Shown: positions 25,598 to 55,098 of the stretch, piece by piece
How positions within the stretch are numbered: the first letter of the stretch is position 1
Layout of the letters: each line of letters begins with the position of its first letter
Origin: Oceanidesulfovibrio marinus
Lineage (GTDB): Bacteria > Desulfobacterota > Desulfovibrionia > Desulfovibrionales > Desulfovibrionaceae
Reading direction: 5' to 3'
Assembly (NCBI RefSeq): GCF_013085545.1
Contig: NZ_CP039543.1
Coordinates: 2,356,001 to 2,420,000, forward strand
DNA: 64,000 nt
Notes under the pieces: generated by a model
The model's input: the letters and a program-made list of their open reading frames with translations, nothing else
Database searches by the model: none
What the model was told of the DNA's origin: nothing
Program-made: the position numbers and the translations under genes

Positions 25598-25604
25598 ATA
25601 AGAA
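25598..25604. repeat. Left target-site duplication of the IS element
   Basis: ATAAGAA, directly before the left inverted repeat; an identical copy follows the right inverted repeat at 26814-26820. A perfect 7-bp duplication indicates a single, undisturbed insertion. Confidence 0.85.
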
Positions 25605-26813
25605 TGAACTGAGATGGATATAACCTGACACCTGGGCCACCAAAAGGTTGTGGTCATGCCGTCCCTGGCTGGGTATCGATGGAGTTGCGAAGCTTCACGA
25701 ACCCTTTCGAGGAGAACGCCATGACCACGAAACGCAAAGTAGCACGAAGGAAGATGAGTCTGCTAGAGCTGGCCACTGAATTGGGCAACGTCAGCAAAGC
25801 GTGCAAAATCATGGGCTATTCCAGGCAGCAGTTCTACGAGATCCGGCGCAACTACCAGACCTTCGGCGCCGAAGGTCTATTGGACCGCCTGCCCGGGCCG
25901 CGAGGCCCGCACCCCAACCGCGTCGACGAGGCTGTCGAGCAGGCCATTCTCGACTACTGCTTGGCTCACCCCACGCACGGACCGCTCCGCGTCGCCCAAC
26001 AGCTTGTCCTGCAAGGCGTCCAGGTCAGCTCCGGCGGTGTCCGCGGCGTCTGGAGCCGGCACGGCTTGCTCACACGCCACGAGCGGTTGCTGCGGCTGGA
26101 GAAGAGCGTGCGAGAGCAGCGTTTGGAGCTCTCGGACGAACAAATCCGCGTCCTGGAGCGCTTCAGTCCCGAGTTTCGCGACCGGCACATCGAGACGCGT
26201 CACACCGGCGATCTTGTGGCCGTGGACACCTTCTTCGTGGGCACGCTCAAGGGCGTTGGACGCGTGTATTTGCAGTCGGTTATCGACTGCCACAGCCGCT
26301 ATGCCTGGGGCCGACTCTACACCACCAAGTTGCCGGTTACCGCGGTTCACGTGCTCAATGAGGACGTGCTGCCGTTCTTCGAGGAGCACATCGCGCGCAT
26401 TTCGACGATTCTCTCGGACAACGGTCGCGAGTTCTGCGGTCGCCCGGACAAGCATCCGTACGAATTGTTCTTGCAATTAGAAGGGATTGAGCACCGGACA
26501 ACGCAGGTTCGCCGGCCGCAGAGCAACGGCTTTGTGGAGCGGTTGCATCGGACATTGCTCGACGAGCATTTCCGCATCAAGGGCCGCGAGAAGTGGTACG
26601 AATCGGTGGAGGAAATGCAAGAGGATCTGGACAGTTACCTGAACCACTACAACCGGGAACGCACCCATCAGGGCCGCGGCATGGACGGCCGAGTGCCCTA
26701 CCAGGCGTTCCTGGATGGCATCGTAACCGACGAGGCAGAGGTAGAAAAAGAAGAAGCAGCGTAGCCATCACCCCGCCAGGGGCGGAGTGTCAGGTGAATA
26801 CTATCTCTGTACA
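25605..26813 (+). mobile_element. IS481-type insertion sequence, complete
   Basis: A 1209-bp element carrying one transposase gene. Its ends are 27-bp imperfect inverted repeats, 25605-25631 and 26787-26813, matching at about 20 of 27 positions; the inner nine bases ACCTGACAC and an internal GAGAT are identical and the tips begin with TG. It is flanked by a perfect 7-bp duplication, ATAAGAA. The transposase frame is intact with all DDE residues, so the element may still be mobile. It lies just after the glgE operon and borders the AT-rich island on its right. Confidence 0.88.
25721..26764 (+). CDS. IS481-family transposase (DDE integrase fold)
   Basis: A 347-residue transposase. The N-terminal third has helix-turn-helix motifs (NVSKACKIMGYSRQQFYEI at 23-41). 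The rve catalytic core carries D169 (VAVDTF), D233 (LSDNGREF) and E273 (NGFVERLHR), followed by HYNRERTHQGRG, typical of IS481. The ATG at 25721 has AGGAG seven bases upstream; a longer upstream start lacks one. No frameshift or stop is present. Confidence 0.92.
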   Translation: MTTKRKVARRKMSLLELATELGNVSKACKIMGYSRQQFYEIRRNYQTFGAEGLLDRLPGPRGPHPNRVDEAVEQAILDYCLAHPTHGPLRVAQQLVLQGVQVSSGGVRGVWSRHGLLTRHERLLRLEKSVREQRLELSDEQIRVLERFSPEFRDRHIETRHTGDLVAVDTFFVGTLKGVGRVYLQSVIDCHSRYAWGRLYTTKLPVTAVHVLNEDVLPFFEEHIARISTILSDNGREFCGRPDKHPYELFLQLEGIEHRTTQVRRPQSNGFVERLHRTLLDEHFRIKGREKWYESVEEMQEDLDSYLNHYNRERTHQGRGMDGRVPYQAFLDGIVTDEAEVEKEEAA

Positions 26814-26834
26814 ATAAGAATACTATCTCTGTAC
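26796..26834. repeat. 17-bp direct repeat, one copy in the IS right end and one outside it
   Basis: GAATACTATCTCTGTAC occurs at 26796-26812, inside the right inverted repeat, and again at 26818-26834, in flanking DNA partly overlapping the target duplication. The outer copy looks like the tip of an earlier related element, so this insertion seems to have landed next to a relic end. Confidence 0.8.
26814..26820. repeat. Right target-site duplication of the IS element
   Basis: ATAAGAA, immediately after the right inverted repeat, identical to 25598-25604. Confidence 0.85.
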
Positions 26835-26844
26835 CGGCCATGTC

Positions 26845-27390
26845 TTAGGGAGAAGGTCTGCGCTTTTTTCGTCCAAAAACAAAAAGACTAAAAATAAATC
26901 CCATCACTGTGAAGTAATCTCCTGTCTTAGAAAAAAAATCGGATACAGAGGGATACCCTTGCGCTACATGAAAAATAATGACGGCACCTATAATGAAAAA
27001 CAATATTCTAAAAATTGGGTACATCGATTCCGTTACAAAAAAAAGGACCCCGACAACCAAAACTAAAACGAGCACCACAACGTCTACAAGCTTGCTGTCT
27101 ATAAAGAAATACAAGATCGCCGACAACGTGAGAAGTGGCGCAACTATCGTACTATTAATATGTTGCACTTTTTTGACACGGGCATGCCAAATATTTAGGC
27201 GATTAATTTCAGCATCAACTTTCTGTAAGATATCGCAGAGTTCTTTCAACCCTTTTTTGATTCTGTCTTCGTCAGAAAGGCTTAAGGACGTTGACTTGGA
27301 CAGAACTTTTCTCGAAAATTCCTCGATGGCTTGAAGTGCATCTTTCTTCTCTGCCAACCTTTGAATCTGTTTGGTGTAACTTCTAAACAT
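26845..27390 (-). CDS. AT-rich gene for a small membrane protein of unknown function
   Basis: A 181-residue protein. Residues 1-80 are charged and helical with coiled-coil character (KKGLKELCDILQKVDAEINRL); residues about 85-175 hold four hydrophobic segments, two of them very Val/Leu-rich, and the end is basic (FGRKKRRPSP). No family is recognised. The ATG lies inside the end of the upstream gene with an 8-base overlap, so the two are translationally coupled. Codon use and base composition are strikingly AT-rich against the GC-rich neighbours, a sign of transfer. The gene ends 11 bases from the relic repeat beside the IS element. A membrane effector paired with a cytosolic sensor is one reading, by analogy with two-gene defence or toxin modules only. 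Confidence 0.75.
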   Translation of the reverse strand: MFRSYTKQIQRLAEKKDALQAIEEFSRKVLSKSTSLSLSDEDRIKKGLKELCDILQKVDAEINRLNIWHARVKKVQHINSTIVAPLLTLSAILYFFIDSKLVDVVVLVLVLVVGVLFFVTESMYPIFRILFFIIGAVIIFHVAQGYPSVSDFFSKTGDYFTVMGFIFSLFVFGRKKRRPSP

Positions 27391-28546
27391 CGCAAGAGCT
27401 TATTTTATAAGTTCTAATTAACTCAAAAGCATACGCAGCATCCAGAGTTTTGCGGCGGAGATACCTAGTTATAAGAGAAGTTCCAAATCCAACTATATTA
27501 CTTTTATATCTGTCGTATCTTTCACTTGAAAACGTTACCCTTACACCCGAATGCGTCTCTGGCAAGCACGAGGCAAGATCTTGAACAGATTCAATTAATT
27601 CTTTCAAGCGTATAAGCGCATTTTCTGCAAGTTCATCTGAATGAGGACTTTTCTCAATGAGCTTGGCACATCTTAGTAGCAAAAAAATATGCTGATCTAT
27701 TGCACCAAAGTCATCATAGTATTTTTTCTTATAGTGAACACGGTACATACCTTTCGAATAATGACCATCGCTCACATTTTCAACGCTTGTGCATACCTCC
27801 GGCCGTTGATATGGCACTCGCGGCGAGAGAAGGCGATTCAGCCCATACAAGGTATCTCCTCCGCCGTTAAATATTGCCAAAAAATATCCCTCCAAAAATG
27901 AGGACAACTCGGCTACTTCGTCATCGTTATTGTCTTGGATATATGGATATTTAATAAAAGGCTTATTAAGACAAAAAGAAAAAAATGCATCTTCTTTCGT
28001 AACATCTGTGACTTGTTCCCACCATGCACTTTTCATATCAAAGGCCAAAGATAATTTGAAAAACTCGAAGACAGAACTCAGAATGCTAATATTCGAATCG
28101 ATTACTAGAATATCGCATAAATCATCTACAAAAACCCGTCCAGCCTTGAACCCAGCATGAAATAGCGCGCGTCGAACGGGGCTATCATTGGAATAATGAG
28201 CCGGGGAAAATAAAGAATTCTGCGATGCATGTCTTAAAGAAGAAAAAAGCTCAATAACGGTTTCCTTTGAGAAAGCAATATTATCATCTCTTCCCCAGAT
28301 TCGAAATCTATTCTCGCGAACATGCTCAAAGTGATACTCAAAATGGGTTTGCAAAGATGTTCTGAGTCTTTGTTTAAATTCTTCTTGTATTGTTTCAAAT
28401 AGTGAATCTGTAGTCTCTTTGACTAATACTTCAGAGCTCTTAGATATTAGTTCTTTTTCTATTTCACTAGACTGCTTACCCATAACAGGAGAAAGATTAT
28501 CAAATGAGCTCATTACAATTTTGTCCAGATCCTTCAGCCGATTCAT
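27383..28546 (-). CDS. AT-rich gene for a cytosolic protein of unknown function, partner of the adjacent membrane protein
   Basis: A 387-residue soluble protein. Residues about 1-80 are helical; a central alpha/beta region follows (about 110-230, with ALFHAGFKAGRVFVDDLCDIL and LSSFLEGYFLAIFNGG), then a segment rich in Tyr/Lys (KGMYRVHYKKKYYDDFG) and a helical end. The central pattern vaguely recalls V4R-type small-molecule domains, but this is too weak to use. GGAGGGGGTG before the ATG is a very strong ribosome binding site. It is first in a two-gene operon, overlapping the membrane protein gene by eight bases. Composition is foreign to the window. No nuclease, ATPase or NTP-binding motif was found by eye. 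Confidence 0.75.
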   Translation of the reverse strand: MNRLKDLDKIVMSSFDNLSPVMGKQSSEIEKELISKSSEVLVKETTDSLFETIQEEFKQRLRTSLQTHFEYHFEHVRENRFRIWGRDDNIAFSKETVIELFSSLRHASQNSLFSPAHYSNDSPVRRALFHAGFKAGRVFVDDLCDILVIDSNISILSSVFEFFKLSLAFDMKSAWWEQVTDVTKEDAFFSFCLNKPFIKYPYIQDNNDDEVAELSSFLEGYFLAIFNGGGDTLYGLNRLLSPRVPYQRPEVCTSVENVSDGHYSKGMYRVHYKKKYYDDFGAIDQHIFLLLRCAKLIEKSPHSDELAENALIRLKELIESVQDLASCLPETHSGVRVTFSSERYDRYKSNIVGFGTSLITRYLRRKTLDAAYAFELIRTYKISSCDV

Positions 28547-29017
28547 TTCACCCCCTCCATGCTAGAATTATTTCAATTATTTTTATAATAATGCTTCTCA
28601 AATATCGCGTCAACAACAAATACGCTGGTATTGAATATCCTTTTGGTGATTTCACAACGCCCAGACATCATGAATGTATCAGAGGCAAGAATTCGCAGCA
28701 CCAACACCTTTTCAGGGGATGCGTGCCTTTATCGCAATTCTTTATCAATTATGTCAATTTAATAATTCGACCACATTACTAGCCCGCCTATATCGAGGCA
28801 GGTGATCTTTTGAGCGTCATGACGCTCTGCCGGACCGGTGAGTCGTCGATCCACGTTTTGTCCTTTATCCATAAGAATTGATCTTCCTCGCCCCATTCAA
28901 CAAATCGTCACCCAACCTTCACGCGCCGGAGAAGCATTCTCCGGCAGGCGTGCCATCCTGAAGCATTGTCGGCCGCACGCACCCAATGCACCCATTCCTG
29001 TTCGGGAGGACACGCCC
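28547..29017. promoter_or_regulatory. Gene-free spacer with a perfect 16-bp palindrome
   Basis: This 471-base spacer separates the divergent AT-rich operon and the beta-propeller gene. It is AT-rich up to about 28790 and then changes to the GC-rich composition of the chromosome, marking the right edge of the island. GAGCGTCATGACGCTC at 28812-28827 is a perfect palindrome, a candidate operator or a hairpin; no other gene-like signal is seen. Confidence 0.5.
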
Positions 29018-30628
29018 ATGCTTCGACATTCCCTTGGCCAGGCCATGGCCTTTGCCTTCATGCTGTTGAGCTTCGCCGCACCCGCCGCCGCTGCGGACTA
29101 TGACGCGCCCGAGCCCTCCAACGCGCTCAGACTGGAGCTTTTGGGCCGGCACACCGCGCCCGAGATCGAAGGTGCTGCCGAGATCGCCAGCTACGATCCC
29201 GCAACCAAGCGGCTCTTCGTGGTCAACTCCAACCAGGTGACCGTGGACGTCCTGGACATTGCCGATCCCAAGAATCCGAACAAGATCGCGGCACTCAACC
29301 TCAAGAAGTTCGGTGGCGTGGCCAACAGCGTGGCCGTGCACGGCGGCGTCGTGGCCGTGGCTGTGGAGGCCTTTGACAAGCAGGACCCTGGTGCAGTCCA
29401 TATCTTCAAGACCGACGGGGAGTTCGACGCCCCCCTGGCCAGCGTTCCGGTGGGCTCCCTGCCCGACATGGTGACCTTCACCCCGGACGGCAAGTACATC
29501 GTTGTCGCCTGCGAGGGCGAGCCGGACGACCAGTACGCCACCGACCCCGAAGGCTCCGTCTGGGTCATCGACATGCAGCAGGGCCCGACCAAGGCTACGG
29601 GACGCATGGCCGGCTTCCAGGGCTTCAACCTCTCAAAGGATGAGCTGCAAAAGGCCGGCGTGCGGATCTTCGGCCCCCACTCCACCGTGGCCCAGGACCT
29701 GGAGCCCGAGTACATCGCCGTCACGCCGGACTCGGCCCGCGCCTACGTGGCCCTGCAGGAGAACAACGCCGTGGCTATCGTGAACATCGCCAAGGCCGAG
29801 GTCGAGGAGATCCTGCCCCTGGGCTTCAAGGACTTCTCCAAGCCCGGCAACTCCCTGGACCCCTCCAACAAGGACGGCGGCATCCACTTCGGCACGTACG
29901 ACAATCTCTACGGCATGTACCAGCCGGACTCCATCGCCCTGGCGACTATCGGCGATACGCTCTACCTGGTGACGGCCAACGAGGGGGACTCCCGCGACTA
30001 TGACGGCTGGAGCGAGGAAGAGCGCGTCGCCAAGGTGCAGCTCGATCCCGAAGCCTTCCCCAACGCGGCTGAGCTTCAGAAGAACGAGGCCCTTGGCCGG
30101 CTCAAGATCACCAAGACCCTCGGCGACACGGACGGCGACGGCGACTTTGACGAGCTCTACTCCTTTGGCGCGCGCTCCTTTGCCATCTGGAAGGTCAAGG
30201 ACCACAAGATCACCCTGGTTTACGACTCCGGCGACCAGATCGAGCGCATCACCGCGGCCATGCTGCCGGACTACTTCAACTCCACGGACGACGAGAACAA
30301 CACCTTTGACGACCGCTCCGACGACAAGGGTCCGGAGCCCGAGGCCCTGGCCGTGGGCGAGGTAGGCGGCCGGAGCTACGCCTTTATCGGACTGGAGCGC
30401 ATCGGCGGCGTAATGGTCTACGACATCACCAATCCCGAAAGCCCGGTGTTCGTGACCTACCGCAACGACCGCGACTTCTCCGGCGTTGTCCCGGAAGGCA
30501 CGGCCGGCGACCTCGCGCCGGAGTGCATCGACTTCATCCCGGCGGACCAGAGCCCCAACGGGAAAGACATCATTGCTGTGGCCAACGAGGTCAGCGGCAC
30601 CACCACGTTGTACGAGATCGTTCAGTAG
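29018..30628 (+). CDS. Secreted choice-of-anchor I / alkaline-phosphatase-like beta-propeller protein
   Basis: A 536-residue exported protein with a Sec signal peptide (MLRHSLGQAMAFAFMLLSF.. cleaved near PAAAA). The mature part has propeller-like repeats (PATKRLFVVNSNQVTVDVLDI; PDGKYIVVACEGEPDDQY; LYLVTANEGDSRDYDGW), characteristic of the choice-of-anchor I family, some members of which were named atypical alkaline phosphatases. A Ca-binding-like loop, DTDGDGDFDE, is present. GGGAGGA seven bases before the ATG at 29018 fixes the start; an open frame further upstream is not used. It is probably periplasmic or released. The phosphatase activity is uncertain. Confidence 0.82.
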   Translation: MLRHSLGQAMAFAFMLLSFAAPAAAADYDAPEPSNALRLELLGRHTAPEIEGAAEIASYDPATKRLFVVNSNQVTVDVLDIADPKNPNKIAALNLKKFGGVANSVAVHGGVVAVAVEAFDKQDPGAVHIFKTDGEFDAPLASVPVGSLPDMVTFTPDGKYIVVACEGEPDDQYATDPEGSVWVIDMQQGPTKATGRMAGFQGFNLSKDELQKAGVRIFGPHSTVAQDLEPEYIAVTPDSARAYVALQENNAVAIVNIAKAEVEEILPLGFKDFSKPGNSLDPSNKDGGIHFGTYDNLYGMYQPDSIALATIGDTLYLVTANEGDSRDYDGWSEEERVAKVQLDPEAFPNAAELQKNEALGRLKITKTLGDTDGDGDFDELYSFGARSFAIWKVKDHKITLVYDSGDQIERITAAMLPDYFNSTDDENNTFDDRSDDKGPEPEALAVGEVGGRSYAFIGLERIGGVMVYDITNPESPVFVTYRNDRDFSGVVPEGTAGDLAPECIDFIPADQSPNGKDIIAVANEVSGTTTLYEIVQ

Positions 30629-30646
30629 CGCACCTGCCGGACGACG

Positions 30647-30688
30647 GAAAACGCCCCGGGCCGAAGACCTCCGCGGTCCGGGGCGTTT
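30647..30688 (+). terminator. Rho-independent terminator of the beta-propeller gene
   Basis: AAACGCCCCGG near 30648-30659 pairs with CCGGGGCGTTT at about 30678-30688. The T-run is short but the stem is strong and lies just after the stop. Confidence 0.65.
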
Positions 30689-30779
30689 GTGTATCGAATT
30701 ACCGGACGGCTGTTCTTGCCCTTGCTGCGCCGGCGGGATATCCCTCCTACGAAACCAGAAACACTGGAGGATATCCGCC

Positions 30780-31151: not shown

Positions 31152-33383
31152 TCACTCCTCGCGGCGGACCGGAATGAGGCAGGTGAAGCTGGAGCCCTTG
31201 CCGGGCTCGCTCTGCACGGTAATGTCGCCGCCCATGGCGAGAAGCAGACGCTTGATGATCGCCAGGCCGAGGCCGTAGCCCTGCTCGCACGACTGCTTGC
31301 AGCCGGCCTGCTCGAACTCCCGGAAAATACACTCGAGCTTGTCCTGCGGTATGCCCTGGCCCGTGTCCCTGACCACGAGGCACAGCACCTTGGCGGAGTC
31401 ATCCACGCCATCGAGGTCCAGGGCCGAGGCTGCAGGCGCGTCGCCGTTCAGGGTGTCGGCCGAGACGGTTATGCCCCCGCGATCCGTGAATTTCATGGCG
31501 TTGCCCACGAGGTTGGAGAGCACCTGGCGGATGCGCGCGCCGTCCCCGCAAAGGGTCTCGGGCAGGGCTTCGCCGAAGTCGGATTCCAGCTGCACGCCTT
31601 TCCTGTCGGCCACAAACCGGTACTGCATAAGAACGCGCTCGACGACATCCCTGGCCGAGAAAGGCTCCTCGCTGAGCTCCATCCGCCCGGCTTCCACGCG
31701 TGAGAGGTCCAGCACGCCGCTTACAAGATCCTTGAGAATCGCACCGGAGGCGAGGGCGCCCTCCACGTACTCAAGCTGATCGCTGGAGCACTTCTCCATG
31801 GCCAGGAGCTGGCACACGCCCAGGATGCTGCTGAGCGGCGTGCGAATCTCGTGGCTGAGATGCGCAAGGTACCGGCTCTTCTCCTCGTTGGCGCGTTCGG
31901 CGCACGTCTTGGCCTGCTCCAGTTCTTTAATGATCCTGCGCGTGGCGGTGACGTCGCGCATGACGATCACGCCGCCGTCCGGCGCCCCTGCATCGTCATG
32001 AAGCGCCAGGTGGTGGACCTCCAGGGTCCGCGTATCCCGGCCGGAGACGCGATGCTCCAGCACGGCGACCTCGCCGCCCCATTCCTCCAGGGGCCGGGGA
32101 ACACCGGCCACCACACCGGCCTGCTCCAGCAGCTCCTCGTGCCGTTTTCCCACCAGGGGCCGCTGGCTGGTGAAGAGCTCCTCCATGCCTTCGTTCGCGC
32201 GCACAATGCAGCGCTCCTTGTCCACTATGCACACGGCGTCGCCCACGGCGGTCAGCACCTTTTCCAGCAGGCCCTCGGCCCTTTCCCTGGCCGACTCGGC
32301 GCAATGCAGGTCGGTAACGTCCTCGGTGATGCCGATGACGCGGAGCTGGCCGTCTCCGCCGTCACCGTTGGGCAGAATAAAGCCGCGTGACCGCAGCCGC
32401 CGGATTGAGCCGTCCGGACGCACGATCCTGTACACGCCGCGGGCCTCCTCCCCCCGGAGGCGCCGTTGATGCAGCGCTCGCACACGCTCCCGATCTTCCT
32501 GATGGACAAGACGATAGTAGTTCTCCAGGTCTTCAAGAATGGTGGACTCGGGCGCGCCAACGATGTCCTCGAAGACAGGGCTCACGTATGTGAACCCTTT
32601 GCCCGGCTCCATCACGTGGAAGATGTCGCGGATGTTTTCCACAAAGTTGCGGAATAACAGCTCATGGTCTTCCATCTCCACCTGGAGAGAACCCTTCTTG
32701 TCCATGGCCGAAGCCAGAAGCGAGATAACGTCTTGCAGGCTTCTCGTGCGTCCAGCGTTCTCCTCTTCCTCGACCTTCTGCAGATGGCGGAAGGCCTCGA
32801 TGAGCATGCAGTTGTCGGTGACGTCCACATTAAAGACAATGATCACGCCGCGCCGCTTGTGGACCTCGCCGTAGTTGATGAAGATCCGGTACTCGCCGCT
32901 ACGCACCCGTATCCGGTATCGAGCCGGCGGAATGCTGCGTCCAGCACGCAGACTCTTCCACCTGCTGCGAACCAATGTGACATCGTCCGGATGGACGAGC
33001 TCGATCAGGAACTCAATCGTGGGTGTTACATCCTTGGGCGAGTACCCGAGCAGCCGGTAGAGTGAATCGCTCCACTCCATTTCACCAGTTTCGAGATTAT
33101 ACTCCCAGGAGCCCATGCCGGACAGAAAGCTGGACCACGAGGTGCCGGAACTCTCCAGGCAAACGACGTCTTCTTTTTTCGGAGACAGAAAGAGATTGAA
33201 CGGCTCGGTGCCCAGTGAGTCTGCAATACGATAAATTAGTTCAAACGAGGGGACCGATACCCCTCTTTCAATATTACCAAGATGTTCGGGGGTGACCCCG
33301 AGCCTCTCGGCCATTTGCGCTTGCGTCAGCCTGGCCAAGGTTCGCAAGTATCGCACTCGTTTTCCAAATCCATCAATATCCAT
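31152..33383 (-). CDS. XRE-type HTH fused to PAS sensor histidine kinase (1)
   Basis: A 743-residue cytosolic protein. Residues 5-62 are an XRE/Cro helix-turn-helix (RYLRTLARLTQAQMAERLGV..TPEHLGNIERG). Three PAS-like domains follow (about 80-195, 240-360, 370-485), then a HisKA H-box with His511 (HLSHEIRTPLSSILG) and an ATPase domain with NLVGNAMKF, DTGQGIP and GYGLGLAI. It has no receiver and no membrane segment. A DNA-binding domain joined to a complete kinase is unusual. The first ATG (33381-33383) is taken; a TTG 12 bases upstream abuts the GGGGGG stretch and is less likely. It is paralogous to 36044-38752; the two HTHs match at most positions, including TPEHL.NIERG and LGTEP.NLFL. Confidence 0.9.
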   Translation of the reverse strand: MDIDGFGKRVRYLRTLARLTQAQMAERLGVTPEHLGNIERGVSVPSFELIYRIADSLGTEPFNLFLSPKKEDVVCLESSGTSWSSFLSGMGSWEYNLETGEMEWSDSLYRLLGYSPKDVTPTIEFLIELVHPDDVTLVRSRWKSLRAGRSIPPARYRIRVRSGEYRIFINYGEVHKRRGVIIVFNVDVTDNCMLIEAFRHLQKVEEEENAGRTRSLQDVISLLASAMDKKGSLQVEMEDHELLFRNFVENIRDIFHVMEPGKGFTYVSPVFEDIVGAPESTILEDLENYYRLVHQEDRERVRALHQRRLRGEEARGVYRIVRPDGSIRRLRSRGFILPNGDGGDGQLRVIGITEDVTDLHCAESARERAEGLLEKVLTAVGDAVCIVDKERCIVRANEGMEELFTSQRPLVGKRHEELLEQAGVVAGVPRPLEEWGGEVAVLEHRVSGRDTRTLEVHHLALHDDAGAPDGGVIVMRDVTATRRIIKELEQAKTCAERANEEKSRYLAHLSHEIRTPLSSILGVCQLLAMEKCSSDQLEYVEGALASGAILKDLVSGVLDLSRVEAGRMELSEEPFSARDVVERVLMQYRFVADRKGVQLESDFGEALPETLCGDGARIRQVLSNLVGNAMKFTDRGGITVSADTLNGDAPAASALDLDGVDDSAKVLCLVVRDTGQGIPQDKLECIFREFEQAGCKQSCEQGYGLGLAIIKRLLLAMGGDITVQSEPGKGSSFTCLIPVRREE

Positions 33384-33631
33384 ACTTCGTTTCAATCCCC
33401 CCGTAAGAAATCGCTCTTATATTACCATATCGGGCATTTCATGAGTAGGAACTGCCACTTCATGTTTTTCCGATTTCTTGTGATTTTCGTTGCATTGCGC
33501 ATAGTACCAATCGAGCTCATCCCTGAATTTTTGTGCGCATCTCCTGCCTGGATGCGCTGGACGACCGGCCTGTTTATTTTTAGGTAGATTCCCTTTGGTT
33601 TCAACCTTTGACTACGGGAGTTTCTTTCAGC

Positions 33632-35104
33632 ATGGATATGGCACTGCACTGCCCGGCCTGCGCCGTCGACTATCGCATCATGGATCGGCATTTCGCCTGC
33701 CCAAAGGCTCAACCCGACGCCGAGCATCTGCTGCGCCAGGTGCACCGCGCCCGGCCGGAGATCGAGCTCTGGCGCGACGCCTGGGACGACGGGGAGCGCG
33801 GTTCCTTCCGCGTGTTCCGCAATGCCCTGTCCAGCCACCTGCTGGCCGGCGAGCAGGGCTATCTGGCCCAGCTTGAAGGAATAAACGACAACCTCATGCG
33901 TTTCCACGGCCTTACCTTTGAAGCCACCGCCCTTTTCTCTGCCCGGCCCCTGGCTGCGGCCATCGGCCACGACGGCCTGCTGCTGGCCAAGGACGAGACC
34001 GCCAACGTGGGCGGCTCCAACACGGCGCGGCACCTCATGGGAACGCTTCTGTACATAGAGGCCCACCGCCGGCTGACCGACTCCCCGGCCAAGACCCCGC
34101 TGGCCATACATAGCTGCGGCGACGCCGCCCTGGGCGCGGCCATCGTGGCGCGGGCCGGCGAGTACCCGCTGCACTGCTTTGTTCCCAGGGACGTGGACCC
34201 GGAGCTGGAGAACCTGCTGCGCTCCCATGGCGCGTACATCGAAAAGGTCATCCCCCGGACCGGAGAGCTTGGCGACCCGTGCTACCGCGCCTTCCGCGAA
34301 GCCGTGTCCGAACGCGGCTTCCTCCCGTTTGCCACATCCGGACCGGACAACTGGTCCGGCATCGAAGGCGGCCGCACCCTGGGCTACGAGCTCGCGCTCC
34401 AGCTCTCCGAGGCGGGCATCGAGCTCGACCACCTCGTTCTCCAGGTGGGCGGCGGGGCCATGGCCCGGGCCGTGGTCGAGGCGCTGGAGTCGTGCCGGGA
34501 GTGGGGAATGCTGGAGCGGGTGCCGCGAATCCATGCCGTGCAGCCGACCGGGAGCTTCCCCTTTGTGCGCTGCCACGCCCTGCTGCTGGCCCACGTGGCC
34601 GATGTCGCCGGCCTGCCCTTCGAGCTGGAGTACGACATCGACTCCGATCCGGAGGACGAGACCGCCATCCTGCGCGAGTTCCTGGAGGAGGAAGCCGAGC
34701 AGGTGGCCGAGGTCGCGGCCTACGCCGCGGATTCCTTTGCCACGGAAGAGGTGCAGCAAGTGCTGGCGCGGGCCGTGGCCAACCCCACGGAGTTCATGTG
34801 GCCGTGGGACCTGGGCGGATCGGAAAGCGCTGCCCACGGCCTGCTCCATCCCGTGGCGCACGACTGGTTCTACCTTGCCGCGGGCATGCTGCGCACCGGC
34901 GGCGTTCCTGCCGTTGCGACGGAAGAGAGTCTGGCAAACGCCAAGGATCTGGTGGCCGGCAACACGAACATCGCCGCCACGGCCAGCGGCACGGCCGGGC
35001 TGGCCGGGCTCACGACGCTGAAGGAGCAGGGCCACATAGCCGGAAGCGACGCCGTAGGCATCGTGCTCACCAGCGTGGACAGGGCCAGCCTGGAGTGGCG
35101 CTGA
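33632..35104 (+). CDS. Threonine-synthase-like PLP fold type II protein lacking the Schiff-base lysine
   Basis: A 490-residue protein. The N-terminus has a zinc-ribbon-like CPAC..(10)..FACPKA. The core has fold-type II PLP features: LLLAKDETANVGGS (119-129 region), a phosphate loop SCGDAALGAA, glycine-rich QVGGGAMARA and the C-terminal TASGTAGLAG. The S-x-K-x-R motif that carries the PLP lysine reads SNTAR, so Thr131 (ACG at 34022-34024) occupies the lysine position; K120 belongs to the preceding conserved KDE. It may be catalytically dead or may use PLP differently. ATG 33632 is chosen because GGGAG is 11 bases upstream. It lies between two XRE-kinases, transcribed with the DJ-1 gene direction. 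Confidence 0.8.
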   Translation: MDMALHCPACAVDYRIMDRHFACPKAQPDAEHLLRQVHRARPEIELWRDAWDDGERGSFRVFRNALSSHLLAGEQGYLAQLEGINDNLMRFHGLTFEATALFSARPLAAAIGHDGLLLAKDETANVGGSNTARHLMGTLLYIEAHRRLTDSPAKTPLAIHSCGDAALGAAIVARAGEYPLHCFVPRDVDPELENLLRSHGAYIEKVIPRTGELGDPCYRAFREAVSERGFLPFATSGPDNWSGIEGGRTLGYELALQLSEAGIELDHLVLQVGGGAMARAVVEALESCREWGMLERVPRIHAVQPTGSFPFVRCHALLLAHVADVAGLPFELEYDIDSDPEDETAILREFLEEEAEQVAEVAAYAADSFATEEVQQVLARAVANPTEFMWPWDLGGSESAAHGLLHPVAHDWFYLAAGMLRTGGVPAVATEESLANAKDLVAGNTNIAATASGTAGLAGLTTLKEQGHIAGSDAVGIVLTSVDRASLEWR

Positions 35105-35275
35105 CCTCGCGGTTGCGTCAGCTGCCCTGGGATTGCGACCGGACCTGCCGCCGATCGAGTTGGACATTCCCTGCCATTTACCCTCCACTTCGCCGCCGAT
35201 CTGGTGCATGATGGGTGCTGTTTTCATCCGTTTGAAACGGTGACCCGACAACCAGAATTATCCCAGGAGGCATAC

Positions 35276-35800
35276 ATGAGCGAGCTTTCAGGCAAACAGG
35301 TCGTGCTGCTCGTGGCCGACCACCACAACGATTACGAGTTCCTCTACCCCTACATCCGCATGAAAGAGGCCGGCGCCACGGTCAAGATCGCCGGTGCGGA
35401 CAAGGACGCCGTATACGCCGGCAAGTACGGCATTCCGGCCAAGGCGGACATGAGCTTCGACGAGCTGGACGCGGCTAAGTTCGACGGCGTCATTATCCCC
35501 GGCGGCTACGCCCCGGATATCGTGCGCCGCCACGGCGCGGCCAATGACTTCGTGAAGAAGATGTTCGACGCGGGCAAGGTCGTGGCCTTCATCTGCCACG
35601 CGGGATGGGTGCCTGTTTCGGCCGGCATCCTGGACGGCAGGCGCTGCACCTCGTTCTTCGCCATCCGCGACGACCTGGTCAATGCCGGGGCGCAGTGGGT
35701 GGACGAGGAGGTTGTCGTGGACGGCAACCTGATCTCCAGCCGGACGCCGGACGATCTTCCCGCATTCTGCAAGGCGATCATAGCGGCCATGAACAAGTAA
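35276..35800 (+). CDS. DJ-1/PfpI-family protein
   Basis: A 174-residue single-domain protein of the class I glutamine amidotransferase-like superfamily. The nucleophile elbow FICHAGW holds the conserved Cys, and PGGYAPDIVRR and the C-terminal SSRTPDDLPAFCKAI fit the PfpI/YhbO type. Members act as deglycases, chaperones or proteases. CAGGAGG lies five bases before the ATG at 35276. A strong terminator follows, so it ends its transcript; it is 171 bases after the PLP-fold gene. Confidence 0.9.
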   Translation: MSELSGKQVVLLVADHHNDYEFLYPYIRMKEAGATVKIAGADKDAVYAGKYGIPAKADMSFDELDAAKFDGVIIPGGYAPDIVRRHGAANDFVKKMFDAGKVVAFICHAGWVPVSAGILDGRRCTSFFAIRDDLVNAGAQWVDEEVVVDGNLISSRTPDDLPAFCKAIIAAMNK

Positions 35801-35860
35801 TTCGGGACCACCAGCCGCCCCCGAGGCGGCAAAGTACTCCTTGTCTTCAATCAGCGCACA

Positions 35861-35896
35861 AGCCGGCCGGAGCTCGCTCCAGCCGGCTTTTTCTTT
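35861..35896 (+). terminator. Rho-independent terminator of the DJ-1 gene
   Basis: AGCCGG (35861-35866) pairs with CCGGCT (around 35883-35888), extended by GGAG/CTCC internally, then TTTTTCTTTT. Confidence 0.85.
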
Positions 35897-36043
35897 TATT
35901 TCGTGCCAATACCTCCGACAGCGCAGATGCTTTCAATCGTATGTACTCCCAACTCTGTTGAATATTGACAAATACACTTGAAGTATCTGTTCGTGTTCAA
36001 ATTTCGAAACATTCCTTACTAAATAATTGTGCCGGGGGGCTAT

Positions 36044-38752
36044 ATGATCAAAAAAGCATTTGGGAAAAGACTGCGTTCGTTGCGCAATCTCGCTGGGTTA
36101 ACCCAGGAATACTTATCAACAGAACTTGGTATCACACCAGAACATCTAAGCAATATCGAACGCGGCAGGGCCACGCCGTCGTTCAAGCTGATCGAGAATA
36201 TAGCCAAGACCCTTGGCACCGAGCCTGCCAACCTGTTCCTGTTCCCCCCGTCCGGGCAGGACGACATCTCCCAGGAAAATTCCACAGCCGGCCCGCAGCG
36301 CGAGCAACAGCCGGACGAAGAAGGCTGCGTCTCCCTCTCCGACTACTCCCTGTACATCACCGACGTGGGCCGCTGGGAGTATGACGTTGTCTCCGACACC
36401 TACCAATGGAGCGACGCCATCTACCGCATGTTCGGCGTTTCCAAGGCGGCCTTCACTCCCACGTGGGAAGGGCTCATGGGTCTTACCCCGAAGAAGGACT
36501 TCCAGGCTATCAAGATGTGCTGGAAGACGCTGCTCGGCGGCCAGCCCGTGGGGCCATTCACCTTTCGAACCCTGAATCAACACAGCGGCGTCCGCCACCT
36601 CATCGCCAAGGCTGAGCCCTTTTTCGACGAGCAGGGCAACCTGTCCTCGATCCGCGGCGTAACCATCGACTACACCGAGCAGAAAAACCTGGAGGAGGCG
36701 CTGCGGCGTCTCCAGCAGACCCTCGAAGGCCAGGTGCAGCGCCGCACCAGCGAGCTGCACTCCATGATCACCACCCTGGGCGAGGAGATCGCGGTCCGCA
36801 AACAGGCCGAAGAGCAGGCCAGACAGTTCAGCCAGCGCCTCTCCCTGGCCATGGAGATAGCCGCCCTTGGCATCTGGGATTACGACCGGGACACGGAGAT
36901 ACTGCGAATCGATGAGTCACTTGTCCGCAGCCTGGGGTACGGTCCGAGCGAGGCCGAGGCCCCGCTACGCATCTGGGAGGAACGCATCCACCCCAAGGAC
37001 CGGCCGCTGCACGACGCAGCCCGGTACGCTTTTGTGAACGAGGAGGTGGACAACTACCAGGCCACTTTCCGCCTCAGAACAGCGCAGGGTGACTGGGTGT
37101 GGTTCCACTCCATAGGCCGGACCAGCGTGTGCGATTCGCAGCAGAAACCGCTGCGCATCACCGGCACGTTCCAGAACATCACCGAGATGAAGCACGCCGA
37201 GCTTGCGCGGATCACCAGCGAGGAGCGGCTGCGCCATCTTGTGGAACAGGTCCGCGAGATCTTCTGGGTCATGGAGGCGGACCGGAAAAAATCATTCCTT
37301 TCCCCGCACTTCGAGCGCATTCTCAAGATTGACCCGGTCGAGGTGATCGAGGACCCCGAGGCCTTTCTCAGACGCGTTCATCCAGAGGACCGCGCCCGCA
37401 TCAAGAACGCCCTCCAACGCCAATGGGCCGGTGTGGAGAACCTCGACGAGACCTACCGCATCATTATGCCGGATGACACCATCCGCGTGATCCATGCCCG
37501 GACCTTTCCCGTGCTGGACGAGGAAGGCTCCATCCTCCGCCTGATTGGCGTGGGTGATGACATCACGGAGATGGTGGAGATGAACCGCGAGCTGGAACGC
37601 GCCAAGGAGGAGGCCGAGGAAGCAAGCCGGGCCAAGTCCGGTTTCCTCGCCAACATGAGCCACGAGATCCGCACCCCCCTCAACGGCATCCTGGCCTTTC
37701 TCCAGCTCCTGGCCCACACCGATCTCGACCAGGAGCAGAACGAGCTGGTGCGCCTTGCCCGCTCTTCCGGCTCATCCCTGCTCGAAATCGTCAACGACAT
37801 CCTGGATATCTCGCGCATCGAGGCCGGCGGCATGCAGCTCCAGGAAACCGAGTTCTCGTTCCAGGAGCTGACCGACGCCCTGACCTCGGTCTTCCGGCCC
37901 TTGGCCGAGCAGAAGGGCCTCAAGCTGAACTCGCGCATAGACGGCGATATCGCCGCCCTGCTTCTCGGCGATCCCGCCCGCATCAAGCAGATACTCTTCA
38001 ACCTCGTGGGCAACGCCGTGAAGTTCACCCACGAGGGGTCGGTGACCATCAGCGCCTCCCTGGACGGAAACGCCGACGGCGACCGCCACCTCATCCGCCT
38101 CGAAGTGGCCGACACGGGCCCCGGCATCCCGGAGAACATGCTCCAGAGCATCTTCGAGACCTTCATCCAGGCCGGAGGACCCGGCGAGATGCCCAGCAGC
38201 GGCACCGGTCTCGGCCTGGCAATAGTCAAGCGCCTGGCAGAGCTCATGGGCGGGTCGGTGTCTGTTCGCAGCGTTCTGGGCGACGGCTCGTGCTTCCAGG
38301 TGCTCCTGCCGTTGCAGGCGGCGTCCGTACAGCCGCAAGGCCAGACGCCGAACGCTTCAGACATGCCCGGCTCCAGCCGGCCGCTGCGCGCCCTTGTTGC
38401 GGAGGACGACCAGGTGAACCGCAAGGCGCTCACCCGCATGCTCCAGATACTGGGCCACGAGGTGATCTGCACTTCCAACGGCCACGAAGCCATCGAGCAG
38501 ATCGAGTTGCAGGAACCGGACGTGCTCCTGCTGGACATCCGCATGCCGGAGATGAGCGGCTATGAGGTGACCCAGCGCATCCGCGAGGGCGTGTACGAAA
38601 AAATCCCCAAGGATATTCCCATCATCGCCGTCACGGCCTTTGCCCTGCGGGAGGACGAGGAGCGCATCCAGGCAGCCGGGGTGGACGGCTTCCTGGCCAA
38701 GCCGTTTACCATGGAAGAGCTACGGGACATCCTGGACAGCGTCCTGCAGTAG
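36044..38752 (+). CDS. XRE-type HTH fused to PAS hybrid histidine kinase with receiver (2)
   Basis: A 902-residue cytosolic protein. Residues 6-62 are an XRE helix-turn-helix closely matching that of 31152-33383. PAS domains occupy about 95-220, 275-395 and 395-525, separated by a coiled coil (225-270). The HisKA H-box has His540 (NMSHEIRTPLNG); the ATPase domain has NLVGNAVKF, DTGPGIP and GTGLGLAI. A C-terminal receiver carries Asp831 (LLLDIRMPEMSG) and FLAKPF. The ATG at 36044 follows GGGGGG; a GTG 15 bases upstream is less likely. The fused receiver distinguishes it from its paralogue, so it might pass phosphate on internally. Self-binding of its own promoter through the HTH is a reasonable inference. 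Confidence 0.9.
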   Translation: MIKKAFGKRLRSLRNLAGLTQEYLSTELGITPEHLSNIERGRATPSFKLIENIAKTLGTEPANLFLFPPSGQDDISQENSTAGPQREQQPDEEGCVSLSDYSLYITDVGRWEYDVVSDTYQWSDAIYRMFGVSKAAFTPTWEGLMGLTPKKDFQAIKMCWKTLLGGQPVGPFTFRTLNQHSGVRHLIAKAEPFFDEQGNLSSIRGVTIDYTEQKNLEEALRRLQQTLEGQVQRRTSELHSMITTLGEEIAVRKQAEEQARQFSQRLSLAMEIAALGIWDYDRDTEILRIDESLVRSLGYGPSEAEAPLRIWEERIHPKDRPLHDAARYAFVNEEVDNYQATFRLRTAQGDWVWFHSIGRTSVCDSQQKPLRITGTFQNITEMKHAELARITSEERLRHLVEQVREIFWVMEADRKKSFLSPHFERILKIDPVEVIEDPEAFLRRVHPEDRARIKNALQRQWAGVENLDETYRIIMPDDTIRVIHARTFPVLDEEGSILRLIGVGDDITEMVEMNRELERAKEEAEEASRAKSGFLANMSHEIRTPLNGILAFLQLLAHTDLDQEQNELVRLARSSGSSLLEIVNDILDISRIEAGGMQLQETEFSFQELTDALTSVFRPLAEQKGLKLNSRIDGDIAALLLGDPARIKQILFNLVGNAVKFTHEGSVTISASLDGNADGDRHLIRLEVADTGPGIPENMLQSIFETFIQAGGPGEMPSSGTGLGLAIVKRLAELMGGSVSVRSVLGDGSCFQVLLPLQAASVQPQGQTPNASDMPGSSRPLRALVAEDDQVNRKALTRMLQILGHEVICTSNGHEAIEQIELQEPDVLLLDIRMPEMSGYEVTQRIREGVYEKIPKDIPIIAVTAFALREDEERIQAAGVDGFLAKPFTMEELRDILDSVLQ

Positions 38753-54011: not shown

Positions 54012-54453
54012 CGGGTACCGTGCGCGCGGCGGGAGGAGCCGGCCGACATCACCCTATCCGGCTCCCCTCGCATGCCGCGTATTCCCGCACGTTCCAACCG
54101 CCTCTCGCTTCCGCACCCCCACCGTCGGCTTCGCATGCTCTGCTCGCGCCTTCCGGCGCGTCCTGTTTCCGCGCCGCTCCCTTTGTTGCGCGCTCGTCCG
54201 GCCTGCCCGCCCCTCGTCCGGTTTTCCCGCGGCGACTCTGATTGCGCATATCTCCAAACTTTGATGATTGCGGCCAACCCGCGCTCATGCAAGAGGCTTT
54301 CCTGTCATGCCACTTGATGATACACACGCAACACAAACCATAAGTTCGTGTTGACGAATTTTTGCAGCGTCCCGGTACATAAGTATCCTGCCGGCGGTAT
54401 TTTTCTTACATGCGCTGCACTGAAATCTTGCCGGCGTTGCACCAGGAGACTGC
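54012..54453. other. 442-base spacer
   Basis: No supported gene. Several overlapping frames exist on both strands with Arg/Ala/Pro-rich composition typical of chance GC-rich frames. The last 100 bases become more AT-rich and probably hold the promoter of the Tat-exported nitroreductase-fold gene. Confidence 0.5.
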
Positions 54454-55098
54454 ATGAACAGAAGACGCTTCATCCGCACCACTGCCCTTGCAGGCCCGGC
54501 GCTTCTTACCGGGATCGGCACCGCGCAGGCCGCACAGGGCGCCTTGCCCCTACCTGCCGTGCAGGGCACCTTGCAGCATGCGCTGGAAAACCGCCGTTCC
54601 ACACGCGACTATATTGATGGCGAACTGGACGACGGAACCCTGGCCGGGCTGCTGTGGGCCGGGTACGGGGTCAACCGCACAGACACCGGCAAGCGGACCG
54701 CGCCTTCTGTCTACGACAACCAGGAAACCGACATCTACATCGCCAAGGCCGGCGGCCTCTTCCGCTACAATGCCAGCGCCCACACCCTGGAAGCCATACA
54801 TGACCGTGATATCCGCGTGTACACCGGCAGCCAGCCCTTTGTAGACATGGCGGCCGTCAACCTCGTCTACGTTGCGGACTTCGACCGCATGGCCGGCGTT
54901 GAGCCTGCGCGCAGGGAGCTTATCGCCGCTTTCGCCGTAGGCTGCATCTGCCAGAACGTCTCGCTCTTCTGTGCGGCCAGCGGCCTCGGCTGCGTGGTGC
55001 GCGACTGGATAGACCGCGAGACCCTGCGCAAGGAAATGGGCCTGTCTGACGGGCAGAACATCATGCTCGCCCAGACTGTTGGCCATGTAGCAGGATAA
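54454..55098 (+). CDS. Tat-exported nitroreductase-family protein
   Basis: A 214-residue protein with a twin-arginine signal (NRRRFIRTTALAGPALL) and cleavage near AQA. The mature part is a nitroreductase-fold FMN protein: HALENRRSTRDYIDGELDD, DGTLAGLLWAGYGVNR and IAAFAVGCICQNVSLFCAASGLG. Export by the Tat route is sensible for a folded flavoprotein. The substrate is unknown. AGGAG precedes the ATG, and a terminator follows. Confidence 0.88.
   Translation: MNRRRFIRTTALAGPALLTGIGTAQAAQGALPLPAVQGTLQHALENRRSTRDYIDGELDDGTLAGLLWAGYGVNRTDTGKRTAPSVYDNQETDIYIAKAGGLFRYNASAHTLEAIHDRDIRVYTGSQPFVDMAAVNLVYVADFDRMAGVEPARRELIAAFAVGCICQNVSLFCAASGLGCVVRDWIDRETLRKEMGLSDGQNIMLAQTVGHVAG

Follow-up and report, generated by a model that had tools for sequence, protein, structure and literature searches.

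Do two kinases that carry DNA-binding domains control the pair of genes they flank, or do those domains act elsewhere? The question is raised by a 64,000-nucleotide stretch of the Oceanidesulfovibrio marinus genome (contig NZ_CP039543.1, positions 2,356,001 to 2,420,000; hereafter the window), in which two related kinase genes, K1 and K2, enclose a gene for a PLP-fold enzyme and a gene for a DJ-1-type protein (Table 1). An earlier note had proposed that the kinases control the enclosed pair. The genome of the window (G000, one contig of 4.76-Mb) was compared with that of its sole sampled congener (G010) and with relatives across the class. Our preferred reading, to which we assign a probability of roughly 0.65, is that K1 and K2 are paralogues in a Desulfovibrionales family of cytoplasmic XRE-HTH/PAS proteins whose HTH would autoregulate its own gene through a dyad, with the kinase signalling separately.

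Table 1 Features at the kinase locus, in window coordinates.
Feature	Coordinates	Strand	Remarks
K1, XRE HTH-PAS-PAS-PAS-HisKA-HATPase soluble histidine kinase, no receiver, 743 aa	31152..33383	-	
K1 HTH domain, recognition helix TPEHLGNIERG	33183..33368	-	helix identical in congener G010
K1 operator-like site, GTAGGAACT-GCC-ACTTCATGT	33445..33465	+	footprint; inside 26-bp block identical in G010
PLP fold-II enzyme (PALP), distant threonine-synthase-like, 490 aa	33632..35104	+	no NCBIfam cut-off reached
DJ-1/PfpI/YhbO-type protein, 174 aa	35276..35800	+	TIGR01382 163.7 bits, cut-off 139.05
Intrinsic-terminator-like hairpin and T tract, between DJ-1 and K2	35860..35898	+	absent from the list of the consensus scan
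K2 operator-like site, ACTTGAAGT-ATC-TGTTCGTGT	35976..35996	+	blind dyad scan; 47 bp upstream of K2 start
K2, XRE HTH-PAS-PAS-PAS-HisKA-HATPase-receiver soluble hybrid kinase, 902 aa	36044..38752	+	
K2 HTH domain, recognition helix TPEHLSNIERG	36059..36244	+	

Pfam domains, catalytic motifs and gene starts agree with the earlier description of two HTH/PAS kinases at this place, each with three PAS domains and a full transmitter, one (K2) with an added receiver. HTH_3 was matched at 46.1 bits in K1 and 52.4 bits in K2 (curated cut-off 23). In K1, PAS_3 matches two stretches and PAS_4 is also found, whereas in K2 PAS_3 matches three. Both proteins have HisKA and HATPase_c, and only K2 has Response_reg. 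Both have the H, N and G box motifs, including the phospho-acceptor histidine, and K2 has the receiver motifs. The likely starts are ATG 33383 for K1, preceded by a GGGGGG tract, and ATG 36044 for K2. No transmembrane segment was found in either protein, the highest 19-residue hydropathy means being 1.49 (K1) and 1.22 (K2). The two genes had been described as encoded outward and inward; both are in fact transcribed away from the central PLP/DJ-1 pair.

The HTH is a domain in its own right. An AlphaFold2 model of K1 residues 2-198 (mean pLDDT 89.8) shows an HTH of five helices joined to a PAS fold by a linker of low confidence, which rules out the case that the earlier note had raised against itself, an HTH wrongly predicted within a PAS linker. 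It is shared by K1 and K2, although 'almost identical' overstated the likeness: 41/64 residues are the same (64%), against 32-34% in the first PAS domain and 51-52% in HisKA and HATPase. Between G000 and G010 orthologues it is the best-conserved domain (89% and 79%, with other domains at 52-74%). By profile, the K1 HTH matches the controller protein C.AhdI, and its fold superposes on 1y7y at 1.0 A over 64 columns with 38% identity. K1 and K2 are the only places in G000 that match the K1 N-terminus across HTH and PAS, eight other matches being to the PAS part, and they are sisters in the tree (support 99/85). A real, best-conserved HTH with associated conserved dyads suggests that sensing may be coupled to transcription within one chain, as had been supposed.

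The neighbourhood itself is a poor guide to function. The gene order K2-DJ1-PLP-K1 is kept in G010, where the window from about 20 to 46 kb is mostly collinear with G000, with breaks at about 25.6-30.7, 40.2-41.6 and 44.5-45.2 kb. Because the surrounding region is largely collinear anyway, the adjacency of K1 and K2 to the PLP and DJ-1 genes says little, and the four-gene block is known from G000 and one congener only. Relatives of the PLP enzyme (E<=1e-60) occur in 5/199 family genomes from two genera, and the three PLP contexts in the second genus, g10 (about 20 kb each), hold neither an HTH-PAS kinase nor a DJ-1 relative. Conversely, neither PLP nor DJ-1 has a relative at E<=1e-6 in any of 17 HTH-PAS loci from other genera, three of which are on contigs <9 kb. 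A functional cassette of the kinases with PLP and DJ-1 was therefore rejected, on the separate occurrence of PLP and HTH-PAS relatives elsewhere and on the collinearity. G010 also has a hairpin with a T tract between DJ-1 and K2. No restriction-modification gene was found among seven neighbourhood proteins scanned with Pfam. The segment at 25600-30700, missing from the otherwise collinear G010, includes an ORF at 25679-26764 that by eye resembles a transposase or integrase, a gene for a choice-of-anchor I protein and, at 26-28 kb, AT-rich DNA of 47.6% GC.

Candidate operators were sought upstream of each gene. The 248-bp K1/PLP intergenic region is 52% identical in the alignment of G000 with G010 and contains a 26-bp identical run that was equalled in 0/5000 column shuffles, and its PLP-proximal part is poorly conserved. 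Within this run, the K1 site is 61 bp away from the start of K1 and 166 bp away from that of PLP. The longest identical runs elsewhere are 13 bp upstream of DJ-1 (p=0.036) and 11 bp upstream of K2 (p=0.17). Aligned at register 0, the K1 and K2 sites agree at 14/21 positions (p=0.003 against the shuffled K1 block). The K1 dyad is weak, with 5/9 pairs in the 21-bp register (the two dyads pair at 5-6 of 9), and the K1 footprint site was missed by both blind dyad scans, which picked other places for K1; the K2 site ranks second in the blind scan for G000 and its G010 counterpart first. Upstream of DJ-1, the best score was -2.0 versus 31-32 at the kinase promoters, with a matrix built from the kinase sites themselves. 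Of the three places (33632, 35276 and 36044) at which the earlier note had suggested looking for shared operators, the K1/PLP region and the K2 promoter have similar predicted sites, and none was found before DJ-1.

Two further candidates were discarded. The block at 35183-35222, upstream of DJ-1, is well conserved in G010 and unlike the kinase operators; we rejected it (CCCTCCACTTCGC) as a third operator for its lack of match to those sites and its modest conservation (p=0.036). We also rejected a reading of the K1 block as a 25-bp pattern (CATGA..GG..CC..TCATG), because the 21-bp 9-3-9 register common to relatives fits better. An exact match to the 25-bp pattern occurs once in G000, but <=2 mismatches give 72 matches in G000 and 66 in G010, against 42 and 19 for the reversed control.

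A K2-type pattern built from the K1 and K2 half-sites matched, at <=2 mismatches, six places in G000, one of them the K2 promoter, and the K2 promoter as the sole place in G010. Since the reversed control gave two places in G000 and three in G010, genome-wide uniqueness is unsupported in the genus of the window, and the telling point for this predicted site is only the coincidence of the two genomes at the K2 promoter. The extra matches in G000 are absent from G010; three of these five lie between genes, and G000 may therefore have a small regulon. A near match at window 54331-54351 (ACACAAACC-ATA-AGTTCGTGT), not found in G010 at that threshold, is 103 bp upstream of a nitroreductase-family gene (54454-55098). 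Another K2-like site (G000:C1:3950448-3950468; L212:1501-1521) stands 47 bp before a small ORF that looks thioredoxin-like by eye and has no Pfam match, and an NtrC-type-looking regulator gene precedes it.

The HTH-PAS architecture, which the earlier note had suggested looking for in other genomes, has relatives across the class. With the K1 N-terminus as query, 25/199 family genomes match at E<=1e-15; a 19-row profile matches 75/348 class genomes at E<=1e-20, 51/348 with a match running from HTH into PAS and the rest PAS-only, HTH-only or partial. Among the best eight candidates per genome in a phylum sample of 395 genomes, partly overlapping the family, only G000 matched at E<=1e-30, and no spread of the HTH-PAS unit beyond the class was seen there. 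A plasmid search with the K1 N-terminus returned 40 records, all of them covering less than 80% of the query; the matches listed are to the PAS part. A genome-contig scan with the K1/K2 alignment gave no match. The HTH-PAS unit occurs with and without a kinase, as Pfam scans of 16 relatives outside the genus show: seven have a HATPase, eight lack a kinase domain at E<=1e-5 and one is cut by a contig end. In two f5 members, the sequence from the HTH onwards, followed as far as the locus extends, encodes a HATPase and the beginning of a receiver.

Proteins of 225-226 aa at L060:8535-9212 and L062:8695-9369, which align with the K1 N-terminus over the HTH and part of PAS1 and lack a kinase domain, are possible one-component relatives. 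A second, divergent HTH-PAS type with helix IQPSYLSRLERG occurs in Solidesulfovibrio (L166, L169, L171, L172, L176 and L178), and these six loci were excluded from the dyad counts. A single-domain receiver gene follows the kinase in 2/3 Solidesulfovibrio loci scanned (L064 and L066; L065 has a CheX/CheC match), and a receiver gene 3' of the kinase fits a phosphorelay output separate from the HTH.

Upstream of these relatives, a 21-bp dyad of 9-3-9 form (two 9-bp half-sites, 3-bp spacer) recurs. The sequence ACACGTAAT-N3-ATTACGTGT, or one close to it, is present in Solidesulfovibrio (g25; 14 loci), g43 (three loci, one imperfect) and g37 (one, imperfect). Its distance to the first codon of the HTH is 58-78 bp in most dyad-bearing loci and 102-139 bp in f4 L132, g43 L020 and L021, and f3. 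In the blind scan, a score of >=16 was reached by 20/87 loci (14 in Solidesulfovibrio, two in g43) and by 0/85 control regions taken from farther upstream. The 87 loci remained after the six divergent ones were dropped, one region being too short. When sites were chosen by their outer positions and symmetry, leaving half-site positions 5-6 unused, and tested against shuffled regions, 30/87 loci reached p<=0.05 and 22/87 reached p<=0.01. The other 57 upstream regions, mostly in families f3-f5, have no significant dyad of 9-3-9 type.

Allowing <=3 mismatches of 18, ACACGTAAT-N3-ATTACGTGT was found at exactly one place in 14/14 genomes (10 of the 14 gene-carrying Solidesulfovibrio, all three of g43, and g37), and this place always precedes the HTH gene. 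The pattern finds the self site by construction, and the informative part is the absence of others. The reversed pattern gave four places across the same genomes. At <=1 mismatch of 16, 12/17 genomes match, each once, including one place in each of three Solidesulfovibrio genomes beyond the 14, with no match in G000, G010, G043, G037 or G014. A Q-type pattern (<=1 mismatch), searched in 16 genomes, matched in six, perfectly only at the self promoters of G201, G211 and G024; with a single mismatch it also hit the self promoters in G228 and in G238, a place in G000 (an E-type genome) and a few more. In four Q-type genomes from g15 and g28, whose dyads are less regular, it matched nowhere. In G238, a second, near-perfect copy (L217:1501-1521) lies upstream of PAS-domain ORFs, the gene running off the locus; no HTH was found in these ORFs, and the copy is a candidate target outside the own promoter.

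The base at half-site position 5, which was not used to select sites, tracks a residue of the recognition helix. This residue, 28 counted from the F of the HTH, occupies the helix position that contacts a base in 434-type repressors. Glutamate goes with G (g25, g43, g22 and L145) and glutamine with A (f3-TKQH, f3-L160, f5a, g15 and g24b) in 9/9 clades with E or Q and a significant site; g1-K1 (E) was left uncounted because the top site there (letters G and T) differs from the K1 footprint. Other residues pair K with A (f4-SVKH) and R with G (f4-SKR), and L131 (H) and L188 (V) are mixed. The pairing was first noticed on earlier clades, and f3, f5a and L145, added later, agree with it; nine clades are few. 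Nor is the rule general, because several E or Q clades have no clear site, g31, g24a and f3-SKQH among them; clades without a significant site also include g37, g14, g28 and K2. Among the blind-scan best sites of such clades, those of g37, g14, K2 and g28 agree with the rule and that of g24a disagrees.

The architecture, the catalytic motifs, dyads in part of the family, a single place per genome in three genera and the nine-clade correlation between helix and base are computed properties of the sequences, and we infer DNA binding at the predicted sites. In the mechanism that we propose, the HTH would bind as a dimer to the 21-bp dyad in the promoter of its own gene, so that each sensor would set its own level by feedback, possibly with control of binding by the PAS domains or by phosphorylation. 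The kinase module would signal separately, by phosphotransfer to a partner encoded elsewhere than beside K1 and K2. Given two similar sites and almost the same recognition helix, K1 and K2 may also cross-regulate. These patterns suggest that the HTH domain mainly reads the promoter of its own kinase and not PLP or DJ-1. More tentatively, and with clearly lower odds than for autoregulation itself, the family may contain a clade of kinases whose HTH regulon is essentially the own promoter alone, with helix and operator co-evolving between species. Occupancy of the site could then feed back on the kinase and yield a self-counting sensor, whose amount and phosphotransfer activity would be tied through one DNA site.

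Local regulation of the PLP and DJ-1 genes by K1 and K2, the reading from which the question arose, now seems improbable. It draws on the position of the K1 site within the K1/PLP intergenic region, for which reason an effect on PLP is possible, and on the retention of the four-gene block in G010, yet that retention is matched by the collinearity of the region at large. Against it also stand the separate occurrence of the kinases and PLP relatives (the 17 loci and the three g10 contexts), the terminator-like hairpin that separates DJ-1 from K2, the low best score before DJ-1 (on a matrix drawn from the kinase sites) and the poor conservation of the intergenic part nearest PLP. In our reading PLP and DJ-1 would be neighbours, affected at most locally through the K1/PLP intergenic region. 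A broader form of the idea, in which the HTH protein regulates whichever neighbour is divergent and the site serves both genes, is doubtful but has better prospects. A solute-binding protein lies across the site in two scanned Solidesulfovibrio loci (L064 and L065), PLP occupies that place for K1, and in g43 and g37, if the HTH gene is taken to begin close to its HTH, the far side of the site is occupied by a divergent gene of a liv-type transporter, encoding a binding protein, that could be the target. However, L066, L063, L068 and K2 are not divergent, and from genus to genus the dyad accompanies the HTH gene beside differing neighbours, those in g43 and g37 being of the same kind.

A different challenge to autoregulation comes from the dyad, which might be bound by another regulator or form an mRNA leader hairpin, leaving the HTH with another role or none. 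The dyad could indeed sit in a transcribed leader, and binding by the HTH is itself our inference; even so, we consider this reading rather unlikely. Neither version would lead one to expect that position 5 follows a helix residue of the HTH in nine clades, or that the site is found at one place in each of the 14 genomes searched, tied to the HTH gene. A leader hairpin in particular sits poorly with K1 and K2 dyads that pair at so few positions and yet are conserved in sequence.

The closest functional parallel to the autoregulation proposed for K1 and K2 is offered by the C proteins of restriction-modification systems, which autoregulate from an operator at their own promoter. C proteins such as C.AhdI (1y7y) resemble K1 in their XRE fold, but they are small and stand alone, whereas in K1 and K2 the HTH is the N-terminus of a multidomain PAS sensor kinase. 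MltR, a one-component regulator of the MmyB type, likewise joins an N-terminal XRE HTH to a PAS-related module in one chain; in MltR this module is a ligand domain of modified PAS-like form, and a kinase is lacking (PMC3406030). K1 and K2 instead have ordinary PAS domains and a kinase, and Pfam reported no MmyB-type domain in either. HTH-sensor fusions were also noted in a survey of the signaling helix, the consulted sections of which describe neither an XRE-PAS-histidine kinase nor autoregulation (PMC1592074).

The phospho-acceptor and ATPase motifs of K1 and K2 are those of hybrid and non-hybrid HisKA kinases, to which the two proteins add an N-terminal XRE domain; the C-terminal receiver that hybrid kinases carry on the same chain is present in K2 and lacking in K1. 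The hybrid two-component systems (HTCS) of Bacteroides are defined by a C-terminal AraC-type HTH after the receiver, whereas the HTH found in K1 and K2 is an N-terminal HTH_3. To judge from the portion of the source consulted, these HTCS resemble K1 and K2 in having the kinase and the DNA-binding regulator in one polypeptide, but they are membrane sensors with a response-regulator part (PMC11253607), and K1 and K2 are soluble, with an N-terminal XRE domain and, in K1, no receiver.

Our searches of an open-access library, among them searches on HTCS and on Desulfovibrio two-component maps, brought up no description of an XRE-HTH/PAS histidine kinase or of its autoregulation. The parts and HTH-sensor fusions are already known; what we did not find described is autoregulation, from a single site per genome, by an XRE domain that is fused to a soluble PAS kinase. 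The family would supply a defined operator that can be tested, together with naturally occurring pairs of recognition helix and operator, and the locus illustrates that proximity to metabolic genes does not make a regulator their controller. Normally, a response regulator is the only route by which a histidine kinase reaches DNA; if our reading is correct, kinases whose own DNA-binding domain acts at their own promoter would bring a direct feedback on expression into two-component signalling.
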